Below, piece after piece: positions 619-64,000 of a stretch of 64,000 nucleotides of DNA. Where the stretch lies: contig NZ_CP019434.1 in assembly GCF_001975725.1 (NCBI RefSeq), positions 3,188,792 through 3,252,791 on the forward strand, in the 5' to 3' direction. The DNA is from Acidihalobacter ferrooxydans (lineage in GTDB: Bacteria; Pseudomonadota; Gammaproteobacteria; DSM-5130; Acidihalobacteraceae). The notes beneath the pieces were generated by a model. It saw nothing but the letters and a program-made list of their open reading frames with translations. It had not been told where the DNA came from and searched no databases. Every line of letters starts with the position of its first letter. Positions within the stretch are counted from its first letter, which is position 1. The position numbers and the translations under genes are program-made.

Positions 619-663
619 GGATACCTCCTGTTCGGCGCCGGCCTTATGTCGCCGCGCGCATTG

Positions 664-760
664 TGAGCCTGCCGGATATGGAAAGAATCGGTGGCGACGA
701 TGGGATCATGGCCCCATCCCCCACTCGCTTCGCCACGATCCTCCACGTACGTCAGGTTTA
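664..760. repeat. Family A palindromic repeat, copy A1 (short, reverse orientation)
   Basis: Ends GAGCCTGCCGGATATGGA and TCCACGTACGTCAGGTTT resemble the family A terminal inverted repeat (consensus taken from A2 at 7038-7199). The inner stretch GATGGGATCATGGCCCCAT matches the conserved half of A2 read in reverse, and the other half is deleted. It fills most of the 619-892 spacer, in which no gene is seen. Confidence 0.6.
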
Positions 761-892
761 TGGGCAGGTCAAAAACATCATGCCTAATTACTTCGGCCCT
801 GAATGAGCCACTTCCGCTGTTCCCTGCCGGCTCGATACCAGACCGTTACAACGATAGAGTAAGCTCCCAAAAACACGAATGGAGAGCCCCCC

Positions 893-5464: not shown

Positions 5465-7035
5465 CCCGGATATTTCACAAACAAAAAGGGCAAAACCCGT
5501 ATAGTTCGATATAATTCAGTTGCTTACACTGCTATCGAACGAGGTTTTGCCCGTGACTGAATGTACCTCAGAAGGCTTTGACTTTCCACCGTTAAAACGC
5601 CGCCGGATCGAGGCCCGATTCTCAGGCGGGGATATCACCAGCGACGGCGGCCTGTTATTACTCCGACAAGCCGACCGGCGGCTGGGACTGCTCGAAGCGG
5701 TCAGTGCGAAGCTCCCCGACGCCCGCGATCCGCGCTATGTCAAGCATGACCTGCTGACCCTGTTGCGCCAACGCGTGTATGCCCTGTGTCAGGGCTATGA
5801 AGACCTCAATGACCATGATCAGCTCCGTGGCGATCCGGCATTGCAGATGGCCACCGGGCAGGATCGGATGTTGGGCAGCGCGCCGACCTTGTGCCGGTTG
5901 GAAAACCGCATGGACCGCAAGGCGGCGATCGCTATTCACCAGGTGCTGGTGGAAACAGTTCATCGCGTCCTTTGCCGAGCCGCCTGAAGAGTTGATCCTC
6001 GACTTCGATGCCACCGATGATCGGGTGCACGGTCTGCAGGAAGGACGCTTCTTCCACGGTTATTACGACGCCTACTGCTTTCTTCCCTTGTATGTCTTTT
6101 GCGGCGAGCAGTTGCTGGTCAGCTATCTGCGTCCGAGCAAGATCGATGGTGCCAAGCATGCCTGGGCGATTCTGGCCCTATTGGTACGGCATCTGCGCCA
6201 GGCTTGGCCTGGGGTCGATATCATCTTCCGGGGCGACTCCGGCTTTTGCCGCCACCGCATGCTCGGCTGGTGTGAGCGCCACGGCGTGCACTACATCGCC
6301 GGGCTGGCCCGAAACCGTCGTCTGGAGGCGATGGTCGAACAGCCCATGGGACTGATCGAGCGGCGGCAACAGCTCACCGGCAAAAAGCAGCGCGAGTTCT
6401 TCCCCCTGATCTACCGCGCCAATGCCTGGTCGAAGTCCCGGCGTGTCATTGCCAAATTGGAAGTCACCGACAAGGGACGCAATCCCCGTTTCATCCTCAC
6501 CGACCTTCCGGGTGATGGACAGCCGCTCTACGAGCGTCTCTACTGCGCCCGAGGCGAGATGGAGAATCGCATCAAGGAACAGCAACTGGGCCTGTTCGCC
6601 GATCGCACCAGCGCCCACCACTGGTGGACCAATCAGTTCCGCCTGCTGTTATCCAGCCTGGCCTATGTGTTGATGGAATCGATCCGCCGGTTGGCCCTGC
6701 ATGACACGGAACTGGCCCATGCCCAGGTGGGTACCTTGCGGCTCAAGCTGCTCAAGATCGGTGCCGTCATCCTGCGCAATACCCGGCGAATCCAGTTTCT
6801 TCTCTCAAGCGCCTTTGCCTACCAGCGCCTGTTTTGCACCGTCGCTGAGCGACTGGTGCCAGGATAATCGCTGCTGAGTGCTGCCCCGGCACGTTGACAA
6901 ACCATGGGGTAAGGGGAAGTTGCGCCCGCAATCCGGGGAAACCCCCATCACACTCAGCCGTCACCCCTGAATTTCCAGATTGACCTCGCCATCGCGACTT
7001 CGGCATGAAATTGAGATACGGGTGAAATATTCGGG
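5465..7035 (+). mobile_element. IS1380-family insertion sequence, 1571 bp, with 4-bp target duplication
   Basis: The outer ends are CCCGGATATTTCAC on the left and, read in reverse, CCCGAATATTTCAC on the right, an imperfect inverted repeat. They are flanked by CTAG on both sides (5461-5464 and 7036-7039), a 4-bp target duplication typical of IS1380. Inside is one DDE transposase gene on the plus strand, broken by a frameshift, with about 168 bp of non-coding DNA after it. Removing the element joins the fructosamine-kinase stop directly to repeat A2. Confidence 0.85.
5553..6867 (+). pseudogene. IS1380-family transposase, frameshifted
   Basis: GTG 5553 follows a GAGG site. The first part (RFSGGDITSDGGLLLLRQAD ... 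LNDHDQLRGDPALQ) is the IS1380 N-terminus. Near 5956-5959 one extra base moves the reading frame: the first frame stops at 5987, while the next frame continues with FIASFAEPPEELILDFDATDD, FRGDSGFCRHRM and GEMENRIKEQQLGLFADR, the three acidic DDE regions. Correcting the base restores about 437 residues, the family length. The frame is otherwise intact, so the lesion is recent, or a sequencing error, or less likely a programmed shift. Confidence 0.85.
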
Positions 7036-7037
7036 CT

Positions 7038-7199
7038 AGGAGCCTGTCGGACTTGGAGGAACGAAGCGAGGCGAGTGGGGAATGGAGGCCAGTTTCCCGC
7101 TCTTTTGAGGATGAGTGGTTCTATTCGAAAAAGAGCGGGGGGGGTGGGCCCCATTATCCCATCGCCGCAGTCGATTCTTTCCAAGTCCGACAGGCTCCT
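7038..7199. repeat. Family A palindromic repeat, copy A2 (best-preserved)
   Basis: A 162-bp element with a perfect 20-bp terminal inverted repeat: AGGAGCCTGTCGGACTTGGA at 7038-7057 and its exact complement at 7180-7199. Internal marks are GAGTGGTTCTATTCGAAAAA and ATCCCATCGCCGCAGTCGAT. No protein fits it. It lies between the IS element and the ZnuA-like gene, and could fold into a long hairpin if transcribed. Confidence 0.88.
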
Positions 7200-7304
7200 G
7201 GGAACCCCCGCGTAGTGCATGCCCAACCCACGCAGGCAGTATTTCGCGCCGCCACCGATTGGTATACCTTATCGACCCTCATGCATCCTCCGGACCTTCA
7301 CACC

Positions 7305-8150
7305 ATGCGACGCCTGCTCTTCGTTTTCCTGCTCTGTCTCGCACCCCTGTCCGCGTCGGCCGCGCCGCTCGATGTCGCGGTGAGCATTCTGCCGCAGAAG
7401 TATTTCGTCCAGACCATCGGCGGCGACCAGGTGCGCGTGCAGGTAATGGTGCGCCCCGGCTACGATCCGGCGATCTATGCCCCCACGCCGCGCCAGCTCG
7501 CCGAGCTGTCGCAGGATCGCCTGTACTTCGCCATTGGCGCGCCCTTCGAGCGCGCCTGGCTGCCGCGCTTCATCGCAGCGAATCCGCACATGCGCATCGT
7601 CGACACGCAGCGCGGCATCCAGCGCTTGTTGCCGACCACCGGCCTGCCCGGCGCCAACCCCAATCCGCACATCTGGCTCTCGCCGCCACTGGTCCGGGTA
7701 CAGGCGGCGAACATCCTGCGCGCGCTCGTCGCCGCCGATCCCGCGCATGCCGCCGCTTTCCGCCGCGGCTACGCCAAACTGATCGCCACCATCGACTCGG
7801 TCGATACGCGCATTGCCCATGAACTGCTGAACACGAACCTCGGCAACCGCCGCTTCATGGTGTTTCACCCGGCGCTTTATTATTTCGCGCGTAGCTACGA
7901 TCTACAGGAAATTCCGATCCAGATCGAAGGCAAGGAACCCAGCCCGCGCGAACTCGCCGCGCTGATCCAGACCGCGCACCGGGATCACATCAAGGTTGTG
8001 TTCGTCGAGCCGCAGTTCTCGCAAAAAGCCGCCCGCACCATCGCCGCGCAGCTCGGCGGACGGGTCGTGTCCATCAATCCGCTGCCGGAGGACTGGCCGG
8101 CCGGCATGCTGGCCATCGCCAAAGCGCTGCGCACGGCGCTCGCCCAGTAA
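7305..8150 (+). CDS. ZnuA-like periplasmic metal-binding protein (cluster A-I SBP)
   Basis: A 281-residue exported solute-binding protein. The signal peptide is MRRLLFVFLLCLAPLSASAA. Family motifs follow: VAVSILPQKYFVQTIGGDQV, then PGYDPAIYAPTPRQLAEL, NPHIWLSPPLVRVQAANI, FHPALYYFARSYDL, EPSPRELAALI and VVFVEPQFS. The usual first metal ligand (His in DPH-x-Y) is Ala here; the other His and the acidic ligand region are kept. No permease or ATPase gene lies alongside, so metal and partner transporter are unknown. ATG 7305 is chosen from the signal peptide; ATG 7281 is an alternative. Confidence 0.8.
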   Translation: MRRLLFVFLLCLAPLSASAAPLDVAVSILPQKYFVQTIGGDQVRVQVMVRPGYDPAIYAPTPRQLAELSQDRLYFAIGAPFERAWLPRFIAANPHMRIVDTQRGIQRLLPTTGLPGANPNPHIWLSPPLVRVQAANILRALVAADPAHAAAFRRGYAKLIATIDSVDTRIAHELLNTNLGNRRFMVFHPALYYFARSYDLQEIPIQIEGKEPSPRELAALIQTAHRDHIKVVFVEPQFSQKAARTIAAQLGGRVVSINPLPEDWPAGMLAIAKALRTALAQ

Positions 8151-8334
8151 GTGACCATGTTTTGCAGGGCCGACAGCGCGGGCCTCGCGCACCCAACGTA
8201 CAACACCGCCTCAGCGGCAACGGCGCGAGGTCGTGGGCCACAACGGTGCAGCGAATCGGCACCGACCGGTCATTTCGCCTGCCACGCCCGCCGCACGCCT
8301 CGCCAAGCAGCGCGCCCCCGCGTGGCGCCATAGC

Positions 8335-9078
8335 GTGTCATTGTCACGCCAAGCGCTTCGCCGCGCGCTGCGGCAACGCCGCAGCGCCTTGACGCCGACT
8401 GAGCGGGCACGCGCCGCCGAACGCATCGCCCGTCGCCTCATGCTCAGCCCGCATTATCGGCGCAGCCGGCGGATCGCCGTCTATCTGGCAGTCGGCGGTG
8501 AAATCGACTGCGCGCCACTCATCCGCCACGCACTGCGCGCCGGCAAACGTCTCTACCTCCCGCACGTACTGCCGAACGGACTTCTGCGTTTCCTGCGTTG
8601 GACACCGTCTACCCCCATGCGCAATAACCGCTTCGGCATCCCCGAACCGGCCACGCCCGGCGCTCCCCCGCTCGCACCGCAGCGCCTCGATCTCGTCTGC
8701 CTGCCGCTGGTAGGCTTCGACTCCCGCGGCAACCGGCTCGGTATGGGTGGCGGTTATTACGACCGCAGCTTCGCCTGGATAAAGCGCGCGCCCAAGCGTA
8801 TGCAGGGCTTGGATGCGCCTGGACAATGGTGGCCGGTGGCGGCCCGATTCCCCGAGGAAAACAGTGGTTCCAGGCGACGAAAAATGGGGACTTGGCCCAC
8901 TGTCTCCGTCGACGCAGTCGATTTCGTCCAGACCGGACAGACTCCCGCTCCGCGCCGCCCACGGCTGATCGGCCTCGCCTACGATTTTCAGCACGTCCCC
9001 CGACTGCACCGCGCACACTGGGATGTCGCGCTCGACGGCGCGGTCACGCCAACGCGAATTTATGCCTTCAAACGCTGA
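8335..9078 (+). CDS. fthC: 5-formyltetrahydrofolate cyclo-ligase with in-frame 51-residue repeat insertion
   Basis: This enzyme converts 5-formyl-THF to 5,10-methenyl-THF using ATP. Motifs: SRQALRRALRQRR at the N-terminus, AVYLAVGGEID, LYLPHV, FGIPEP, DLVCLPLVGFDSRGNRLGMGGGYYDR, and after a gap LIGLAYDFQ ... WDVALDGAVTPTRIY. Between YYDR and LIGLAYD there are about 66 residues where the family normally has about 17. The extra residues 154-204 (counted from GTG 8335) coincide exactly with family A repeat copy A3, 153 bp or 51 codons without a stop. The start is uncertain, and no strong ribosome site is seen. Activity with the insert is untested. Confidence 0.85.
   Translation: MSLSRQALRRALRQRRSALTPTERARAAERIARRLMLSPHYRRSRRIAVYLAVGGEIDCAPLIRHALRAGKRLYLPHVLPNGLLRFLRWTPSTPMRNNRFGIPEPATPGAPPLAPQRLDLVCLPLVGFDSRGNRLGMGGGYYDRSFAWIKRAPKRMQGLDAPGQWWPVAARFPEENSGSRRRKMGTWPTVSVDAVDFVQTGQTPAPRRPRLIGLAYDFQHVPRLHRAHWDVALDGAVTPTRIYAFKR
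8794..8946 (+). repeat. Family A palindromic repeat, copy A3, inside the fthC coding sequence
   Basis: Ends AAGCGTATGCAGGGCTTGGA (13/20 identical to the A2 end) and TCCAGACCGGACAGACTCCC (14/20). Shared interior marks are AATGG-GGCC, GAGGA, AGTGGTTC, CGA-AAAA and GACGCAGTCGAT-TCGTCC. It is 153 bp long, a multiple of three, read without stops as KRMQGLDAPGQWW ... VDFVQTGQTP. It is more diverged than A2, as expected if it has been kept open under coding constraint. Confidence 0.8.
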
Positions 9079-9954: not shown

Positions 9955-10118
9955 AGGCGTCTGCCGGACCTGGAGAATCGTGGCGAGGCGGGTAGGCAAT
10001 GGAGGCCAATCTCCGTGCTTTTGAGGGCAATAGCGATTCTATTCGACACGATAAAACTGTGTTGTGGAACCACCATCCCATCGTCGCAGTCGTTTCTTTC
10101 CAAGTCCGACAGGTTTGT
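9955..10118. repeat. Family A palindromic repeat, copy A4
   Basis: 164 bp with ends AGGCGTCTGCCGGACCTGGA and TCCAAGTCCGACAGGTTTGT, plus the interior marks TGGCGAGGCGGGTAGGCAAT, CTTTTGAGG, GATTCTATTCGA and CATCCCATCGTCGCAGTCG. It is near full length and lies directly downstream of the trxA stop. The remaining 9772-9954 spacer shows no gene. Confidence 0.8.
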
Positions 10119-12033: not shown

Positions 12034-12294
12034 AGGAGACTGTCGGACTTAACCCGAATGTTTCACAAAATCCCGCCGCTCTCACGGGTCTCTTGATTCC
12101 ACAAGGGATATTTCCTCAGTCGGCCGTAATCACCGATACGACGCTCCTTCGGTGTCCCTCGTGAAATCAATATTCAGCGCGATATCAGCGGTAGTTGTGA
12201 AACATCCGCGTTAAAAAAATCGGTTGCGGCGGTGGGATAATGGGCTTATTTCCCCGCTCGCCTCACTACGATCCTCCAGATCCGACAGGCGCCT
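12034..12294. repeat. Family A repeat, copy A5, split by repeat B1
   Basis: Outer ends are AGGAGACTGTCGGACTTAAC and TCCAGATCCGACAGGCGCCT. Element B1 (12053-12210) sits inside it between two TTAA copies. After removing B1 and one TTAA, about 99 bp of reverse-orientation family A remains, with GGTGGGATAATGGGC conserved. Confidence 0.75.
12053..12210. repeat. Family B MITE-like element, copy B1, inserted into A5
   Basis: 158 bp beginning CCCGAATGTTTCACAAAATC and ending, in reverse, CGCGGATGTTTCACAACTAC, flanked by TTAA on both sides (12049-12052 and 12211-12214). The ends match those of the IS element at 5465-7035 but there is no transposase. The interior TTGATTCCACAAGGGATATT and CGGCCGTAATCACCGATACG are shared with B4. 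Confidence 0.85.
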
Positions 12295-17297: not shown

Positions 17298-17442
17298 CCT
17301 GGATGCTTCACAAATCTGTGCTCGCGCCGTATAGGTTTCACAAGCAAACCACGAAGGAGCGACGCTTTGGTGATGACGCCGGCTGAGGGAATAGCGGAAT
17401 CAAGCGACCCGCAAGATCGGTGGTAGTTGTGCAACATTCGGG
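17298..17442. repeat. Family B MITE-like element, copy B2
   Basis: 145 bp with ends CCTGGATGCTTCACAAA and, in reverse, CCCGAATGTTGCACAAC. Flanks CCAT and CTAT could be a degenerate 4-bp target duplication. It shares GACCCGCAAGATCGG-GGT with B3. It lies just upstream of moaA. Confidence 0.7.
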
Positions 17443-17503
17443 CTATATCCGACTTATTTACTTGGGATTACTTTTACGTCATGTCCCGTCGTATACTGCG
17501 CTC

Positions 17504-24391: not shown

Positions 24392-24551
24392 CCCGGATGC
24401 TTCCTGAATTCGCACCAAAAACGAACAAGCTATTAATTTTAATATAAAATCCTAGAACAAGCAGCGTATCGGCGATGACGGTCGACTGAGGAAATACCCC
24501 TTGTGGAATAATGAGACCCGCAAGATCGGCGGTCGTTGTGAAACATTCAGG
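24392..24551. repeat. Family B MITE-like element, copy B3
   Basis: 160 bp with ends CCCGGATGCTTCCTGAATTC and, in reverse, CCTGAATGTTTCACAACGAC. It contains an AT-rich core (about 24428-24450) and GAGACCCGCAAGATCGGCGG shared with B2. Flanks ACAG and CTAG are only partly alike. It fills the nhaD-prkB divergent spacer. Confidence 0.7.
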
Positions 24552-24653
24552 CTAGAATGCACCCACTGTGCGGAATATCAGGGTGCGAAAAGACGCGCGC
24601 CACCCGACTCGCCCACCACGATTTAACAACCTGGCATTGAGGAGAAAGCGAAT

Positions 24654-26076: not shown

Positions 26077-26237
26077 CCCCGAATGTTTCACAAATTCCCG
26101 CCGCTCTCGCAGGGCTCTTGATTCCACAAGGGATATTTCCTCAGTCGGCCGTAATCACCGATACGCCGCTCCTTCTGAAATCCCCTTGTGAAATCAATAT
26201 CCGGCGCGATACCGGCACTAGTCATGAAACATTCGGG
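26077..26237. repeat. Family B MITE-like element, copy B4
   Basis: 161 bp with ends CCCCGAATGTTTCACAAATT and, in reverse, CCCGAATGTTTCATGACTAG, flanked by TGAC on both sides (26073-26076 and 26238-26241), a clear 4-bp target duplication. The interior is very like B1 over most of its length. Confidence 0.88.
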
Positions 26238-26324
26238 TGACAATTTTTTCAACCCGCTTGCATCTGCCGACCGTTCTCGCGGTAGACTCGTGCATCGGTT
26301 CTCCCGATACGGATACCCCGTTCG

Positions 26325-33810: not shown

Positions 33811-33911
33811 AGGAGCCTATCGGCCCGCGAGGAGCGTAGCCGGCAAGTGAGGAAATAGGCGCCCTTCATCCCATCGCCGCCACCGATTCATTCCAGACTC
33901 GACAGGCTGCC
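33811..33911. repeat. Family A palindromic repeat, copy A6
   Basis: 101 bp with ends AGGAGCCTATCGGCCCGCGA and TCCAGACTCGACAGGCTGCC and the conserved TTCATCCCATCGCCGCCACC. It is a shortened copy right after the TIGR02186 gene. The rest of the 33805-34167 spacer holds the promoter below and no gene. Confidence 0.75.
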
Positions 33912-34931: not shown

Positions 34932-35090
34932 GGATAGTGTCGATTTTGAAGAATCGTGTAGCGAGGCCAGTGAGCAAGGGGGCTCGGTTCGCAGGGCTTT
35001 TGATAACAAGGTTCTATTCAACGAAAAAGGGCGCTACGAACCCGTTATTCCAGCGCCACCTCGGTATTATCCCAAGTCAGGCCGGCCCCT
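34932..35090. repeat. Family A palindromic repeat, copy A7 (degenerate)
   Basis: 159 bp with ends AGGATAGTGTCGATTTTGAA and TCCCAAGTCAGGCCGGCCCC. It keeps GTAGCGAGGCCAGTGAGCAA, GGGCTTTTGATAAC and GGTTCTATTCAACGAAAAAG in the same order as A2. It occupies the 34735-35139 spacer with the terminator; no gene is seen. Confidence 0.65.
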
Positions 35091-63872: not shown

Positions 63873-63916
63873 CCCGGAGCACAGTCCGCCGGGTGGACTG
63901 ACCCGGCACCACCGCA

Positions 63917-63991
63917 CCGCCGGGGAGCGCTGCGACAGGGTTCCCCCTGCCAGGCCCGGCGGCACGGCCAACTCACTGCAACGGCGCTCAC
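63917..63991 (+). promoter_or_regulatory. S-adenosylhomocysteine (SAH) riboswitch, controlled gene beyond the window
   Basis: The stretch carries the SAH-riboswitch core GGGGAGCGCTGCGAC ... CAGGCCCGGC ... CAACGGCGCTCACGA. Pairings read directly: GAGCGC (63925-63930) with GCGCTC (63984-63989), CAGGG (63936-63940) with CCCTG (63945-63949), and GCCGGG (63919-63924) with CCCGGC (63955-63960). This family turns on SAH-recycling genes when SAH builds up; the target is expected to be ahcY just downstream of 64000. Confidence 0.88.
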
Positions 63992-64000
63992 GAACCGACC

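Follow-up and report, generated by a model that had tools for sequence, protein, structure and literature searches.

The fthC locus of Acidihalobacter ferrooxydans

The window, which is the whole stretch of 64,000 nucleotides analysed, corresponds to positions 3,188,792-3,252,791 of the single 3,448,835-bp contig of A. ferrooxydans DSM 14175 (strain V8; CP019434), a halotolerant iron-/sulfur-oxidising acidophile with 61.6% GC and a chromosome of 3,448,835 bp (PMC5477407). At 8335-9078, on the forward strand, it contains fthC, encoding a 5-formyltetrahydrofolate cyclo-ligase of 247 residues if read from the GTG at 8335; an in-frame GTG is also found at 8233. The assignment is based on the conserved residues of the family and on the Pfam and NCBIfam profiles PF01812 (5-FTHF_cyc-lig, E=9.5e-43) and TIGR02727 (MTHFS_bact, E=7.7e-48), whose best stretch stops in both cases at residue 151-152, where an extra segment begins. 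FthC homologues are present in 52 of the 56 genomes searched, and their alignments with the V8 protein are interrupted at this segment; the homologue search found no second fthC in the A. ferrooxydans genome.

Homologue search and alignments divide the gene in three parts, all read on the forward strand: an N-terminal conserved part (8335-8793) that ends at YYDRSFAWIKRAP, the extra segment (8794-8946), and a C-terminal conserved part (8947-9078) that begins at APRRPRLIGLAYDFQ and contains the invariant residues Q219, W229, D230 and T238. The extra segment is a copy of a palindromic repeat, family A, with exactly 153 nt (51 codons, residues 154-204), is codon-aligned and stop-free, and lies in a surface loop just after GMGGGYYDR. 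The distance between YYDR and LAY is 73 residues in V8 FthC and 16-31 residues in all of the 109 aligned homologues, which include those of the other genome of the genus and of three genomes of sister genera, and none of the 109 has any residue in the columns of residues 158-199. In an alignment of 45 FthC sequences, 24 columns are invariant, and V8 FthC keeps all of them, on both sides of the insert; codon usage is normal in both flanks (scores of 0.24 and 0.32). The initial annotation had described a family A repeat of 153 bp without stop codons, covering residues 154-204 in the loop after GMGGGYYDR and followed by the conserved C-terminal half of the enzyme; the reading of the ORF, the invariant residues and profiles built without this copy agree with it on each of these points, and none of the orthologues carries the same segment; its presence in distant ones would have spoken against an insertion.

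The family A repeat in the window and in the genome

Three further family A copies are found on the forward strand of the window: the well preserved, intergenic copy A2 (7038-7199, 173.9 bits), a moderately diverged intergenic copy adjoining trxA (9955-10118, 115 bits) and a strongly diverged copy (34936-35090, 74 bits). Central-deletion derivatives are located at 663-761 (reverse strand, around 98 bp, 58.5 bits), 12200-12294 (reverse strand, short, 39.9 bits) and 33811-33911 (forward strand, short, 34.3 bits). The internal-deletion form of around 98 bp, a "MITE of a MITE" which keeps both ends, occurs around 20 times in the genome.

A DNA search with A2 gave 194 candidates on first listing and 40 scored full copies with 87-92% identity. 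A covariance model gave at least 134 matches at more than 100 distinct places, some of them being both strands of one palindrome; this count is a lower bound, since 150 of 1,420 candidates were scored. Full copies have 161-167 bp (n=55), and element plus target duplication adds 165 nt in 21 of the 55 and 162 nt in 11. The family shows the features of a MITE: a small size (162-165 bp in most of the 55 full copies), dispersal over more than 100 places, terminal inverted repeats with GAGCCTGTCGGACTTGGA at both ends, and a target-site duplication, seen in one empty-site comparison beside a one-base N assembly gap. The terminal repeats with up to one mismatch occur 74 and 85 times, and the reversed control gave 0. 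The 55 full copies have CTAG-type outer 4-mers, and left and right 4-mers are equal in 22 against 15 expected, which is a weak excess.

Nearly all the other family A copies inspected are intergenic. The other genome of the genus contains a single good copy besides several weak ones, and the family was not found in three genomes of sister genera. No autonomous parent with the family A terminal repeats was found among repeat pairs enclosing a transposase or in the DDE_Tnp_1 and DUF4096 families, and the Acidihalobacter literature searched makes no mention of the repeat. Family A copies are often situated directly at gene ends (for example at loci L190 and L011), so placed that the TAG stop codon comes from, or overlaps, the CTAG of the element.

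Membership of the fthC copy in family A

The hairpin of the fthC copy is lost: its folding energy (MFE) does not differ from that of shuffled sequences (z = -0.97), and it scores 17 bits with the covariance model, where good copies score 115-199. Since a hairpin-based search would miss a copy of 17 bits, hairpin-independent profiles were used. An nhmmer profile made from 30 other family A copies recovers the fthC copy in the 64-kb window with E=8e-11, and a profile of 72 other copies, from which the fthC copy was excluded, recovers it with 52.8 bits and E=6.5e-15 in 447 kb searched, with no matches in the reversed-sequence control of the same 447 kb. The pairwise score to the consensus is 103, and shuffled sequences show a mean of 22.8 and a maximum of 42. 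The alignment spans the full 165-nt consensus with around 71% identity and a net length change of -12, a multiple of three, and only at the 5' end (8794-8814) is the alignment poorer than elsewhere. The fthC reading frame corresponds to frame 0 of the repeat (RSLSDLEDRSEASGEWRPVSRSFEDNSGSIRRKRAGKWAHYPIAAADSFQVRQAP in one and KRMQGLDAPGQWWPVAARFPEENSGSRRRKMGTWPTVSVDAVDFVQTGQTP in the other), and the ends of the element coincide with the break in the orthologue alignment. The origin of the extra segment from the insertion of a palindromic mobile repeat is well supported, and the identity of around 71% bears out the earlier view that the copy is more diverged, and older, than the intergenic A2.

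Target site and other copies inside genes

A family A copy is also found in a gene encoding an ABC-transporter permease (genome positions 2,595,230-2,596,120), in frame after codon 10 and inside the first predicted membrane helix. A paralogue 3 kb downstream, 82% identical, does not contain the repeat. The permease with the repeat shows TCG-CTAG-GAGCC...GGCTC-CTAG-TCC where the paralogue shows TCG-TTAG-TCC, and this comparison of a filled and an empty site points to a target duplication of 4 bp, CTAG. With such a duplication the element itself would have 158-161 bp; together the two add 162 or 165 nt, as found for 32 of the 55 full copies. Since the locus contains a one-base N, an assembly gap, the permease is taken as a candidate second in-frame case. 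The target duplication of the fthC copy has decayed beyond recognition (CCAA on one side and CCCG on the other).

Copies inside genes were surveyed in the stretches around the approximately 110 best places and in a 380-kb spread of the genome, as copies with coding sequence in the same frame on both sides. The initial annotation had proposed a search of the genome for other copies within ORFs; it gave two further candidates, the permease and the N-terminus of the soluble lytic transglycosylase Slt, and of the copies inspected only the one in fthC is securely inside a gene. The N-terminus of Slt (genome positions around 213.8-216 kb) may include a family A copy read in frame: the repeat-derived stretch is just upstream of the signal peptide, and relatives match only from around residue 57 on. 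Most apparent internal copies lie between two genes on inspection, so copies inside genes are rare. Candidates at glcE/glcF, at fadA/fadD and upstream of ribF, dnaB, moeB and tolC were rejected as intergenic, and several frames that appeared open through copies were spurious, in a GC-rich genome. The expected share of gene insertions that are both in frame and stop-free, as a mean over copies and frames, is 23%.

A long ORF in the window (7053-8150), that of a ZnuA-like metal-binding protein, stays open across the A2 repeat. The protein probably starts at MRRLLFVF near 7306, and the automatic annotation may therefore include repeat-derived residues. The window also contains, at 63916-63996, a match of 59.6 bits to the SAH riboswitch (RF01057).

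Structure model

The AlphaFold2 model, built with 45 sequences, shows a mean pLDDT of 84, with most of the core above 90 and most of residues 155-200 below 50 (segments 155-171, 176-181 and 183-200). In the model, the insert comes after the helix that follows YYDR and before the strand at 210-214. The top Foldseek matches are 5-FTHF cyclo-ligase (FthC/MTHFS) structures (2jcb, E=4e-14), and the insert segment has no Pfam match. The model suggests that the protein likely has the normal fold of the enzyme with a predicted disordered loop. Tryptic peptides that would lie inside residues 154-204 include MQGLDAPGQWWPVAAR and MGTWPTVSVDAVDFVQTGQTPAPR.

Probable origin and fate of the insert

The reading that accounts best for these data, and that is considered probable as a whole, is a selfish MITE insertion which fthC tolerated as an extension of a surface loop, with its frame kept and its amino acids drifting. 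Family A would be a non-autonomous palindromic MITE of approximately 158-161 bp that targets CTAG-like sites, the 4 bp of which are duplicated on insertion. The insertion of one copy into fthC would have taken place in an ancestor of A. ferrooxydans V8, after its split from the other genome of the genus. Since 165 or 162 nt is a multiple of three and two forward frames of the repeat are usually open, the insertion would have been read as around 55 codons; since it fell in the variable surface loop between the helix that follows GMGGGYYDR and the next core strand, the enzyme is proposed to have kept its fold and its activity. Selection would since have kept the frame only, with net indels in multiples of three and no stop codon, and the probable order of events is that the frame was kept, the hairpin was lost and codon composition shifted towards that of the host. 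The insert is most likely still present in the protein, as a disordered loop without a function of its own.

Constraint on the frame is supported by the intact flanks and the phase of the indels. The lack of stop codons falls short of proof, because a stop-free insert at this divergence is expected under neutrality with p ~0.24. Among 30 other copies with up to 85% identity, three keep frame 0 open together with a length divisible by three, the copy ends being extrapolated in this comparison from profile coordinates.

The initial annotation called the repeat domesticated. True domestication, in which the 51 residues gained a role in regulation, oligomerisation or stability in an acidophile and were selected for their sequence, would fit a frame kept through around 30% divergence, a pN/pS of the insert against the consensus of 0.76, below the neutral mean of 1.07, and a third-position GC that moves from 0.49 in the consensus to 0.65 in the insert, towards the 0.72-0.76 of the flanks. 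However, 10% of neutral simulations show a pN/pS as low, so the constraint on amino acids is not significant; the amino-acid identity of 42% is as expected under neutral drift (37.5 +/- 4.6%), the segment is predicted to be disordered and matches no Pfam family, and only one genome among those compared carries it. Nothing beyond tolerance is borne out, and domestication is regarded as unlikely. A broader form of it appears just as improbable: that the insert serves FthC, perhaps by regulating or stabilising it as a disordered segment, and that family A recurrently donates readable segments, in fthC, the ABC permease and the Slt N-terminus. If it were true, a core folate enzyme of a free-living acidophile would have acquired a functional part from a selfish MITE.

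Somewhat less probable still is that fthC is becoming a pseudogene, the enzyme having been inactivated or impaired by the insertion and its frame surviving by chance. FthC is dispensable in some bacteria, and the neutral chance of a stop-free insert of around 24% would allow it, but the insert is old and yet 24 of 24 invariant residues and normal codon usage are preserved at both sides, the indels add up to a multiple of three, and the genome yielded no other fthC. Finally, a loop expansion specific to the lineage, with a resemblance to the repeat due to chance or composition, could be imagined from the divergence of the copy and its less well aligned 5' end, but it is for practical purposes refuted by the match to the profile that lacks this copy (E=6.5e-15, zero control matches), which covers nearly the whole element and ends at the break in the orthologue alignment.

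Comparison with known palindromic elements

A tolerated insertion of this kind has several counterparts. The RPE of Rickettsia are palindromic repeats of around 105-150 bp found in frame in conserved genes, to which they add around 50 residues (Ogata 2000, 2002; PMC10969869, PMC2229807); 19 intragenic RPE have been reported (PMC10969869, PMC2229807), a guanylate kinase that bears one is translated and active (PMC2229807), and their palindromic arms decay with age (PMC6649704). The WPE of Wolbachia are found in addA, addB and priA, in frame, stop-free and apparently not inactivating (PMC4224334). In-frame fusions of MITEs and genes are also described in enterobacteria (ERIC/IRU and YPAL/RU-2, with YPAL having around 168 bp and a 56-codon frame), in Neisseria (the 107-bp Correia element) and in archaea (PMC2229807). 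The initial annotation was mistaken in taking Rickettsia as the only comparison; cases are described in Gammaproteobacteria too (ERIC, YPAL/RU-2).

The fthC copy resembles RPE in its behaviour: both are multi-copy palindromic repeats with an in-frame, stop-free insert in a conserved gene that is absent from the orthologues, and the lost hairpin of the fthC copy parallels the decay of RPE arms. In contrast to the many gene inserts of Rickettsia, family A is secure inside a gene in fthC alone among more than 100 copies, its host is a free-living acidophile, and its target is of the CTAG type. WPE share the in-frame, stop-free insertion of a palindrome in conserved genes, but in another host and with several inserts per gene. 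Frequent presence inside genes, a trait of both RPE and WPE, is not seen in family A, where one candidate besides fthC was found among the inspected copies. ERIC/IRU, YPAL/RU-2 and Correia elements are, like family A, open-frame MITEs of Gamma- or Betaproteobacteria, mostly intergenic and in some cases fused in frame to genes; family A differs from them in its terminal inverted repeats (GAGCCTGTCGGACTTGG) and its CTAG-type rather than TA termini, and their fusions are partly in hypothetical genes, whereas the fthC copy is internal to a conserved enzyme. Since family A is limited to the same genus among the relatives tested, descent from RPE or WPE is unlikely.

The kind of event is known, and the family, host and gene appear to be new within the literature searched. 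The fthC copy is an example of a selfish palindromic repeat turned into protein sequence outside endosymbionts, where such cases are best known, and it is clean and well dated, backed by a profile of the family, a structural model and 109 orthologues in which the site is empty. It also brings to light a MITE family, apparently undescribed so far, to which much of the repeat content between the genes of A. ferrooxydans belongs, and fthC offers a simple test bench for the neutrality of such inserts.

A second repeat family

A second repeat family, with ends CCCGAATGTTTCAC, is found in the window at 12053-12216, 17396-17445, 24431-24557 and 26078-26243, and also at locus L278. Its ends resemble the 18-bp inverted repeat CCTAGCCCGGATATTTCA that flanks a transposase in L278; this transposase and the IS1380-like one at 5779-6867 of the window apparently belong to one family. 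Family A copies often abut the ends of this second family and share a CTAG with them.
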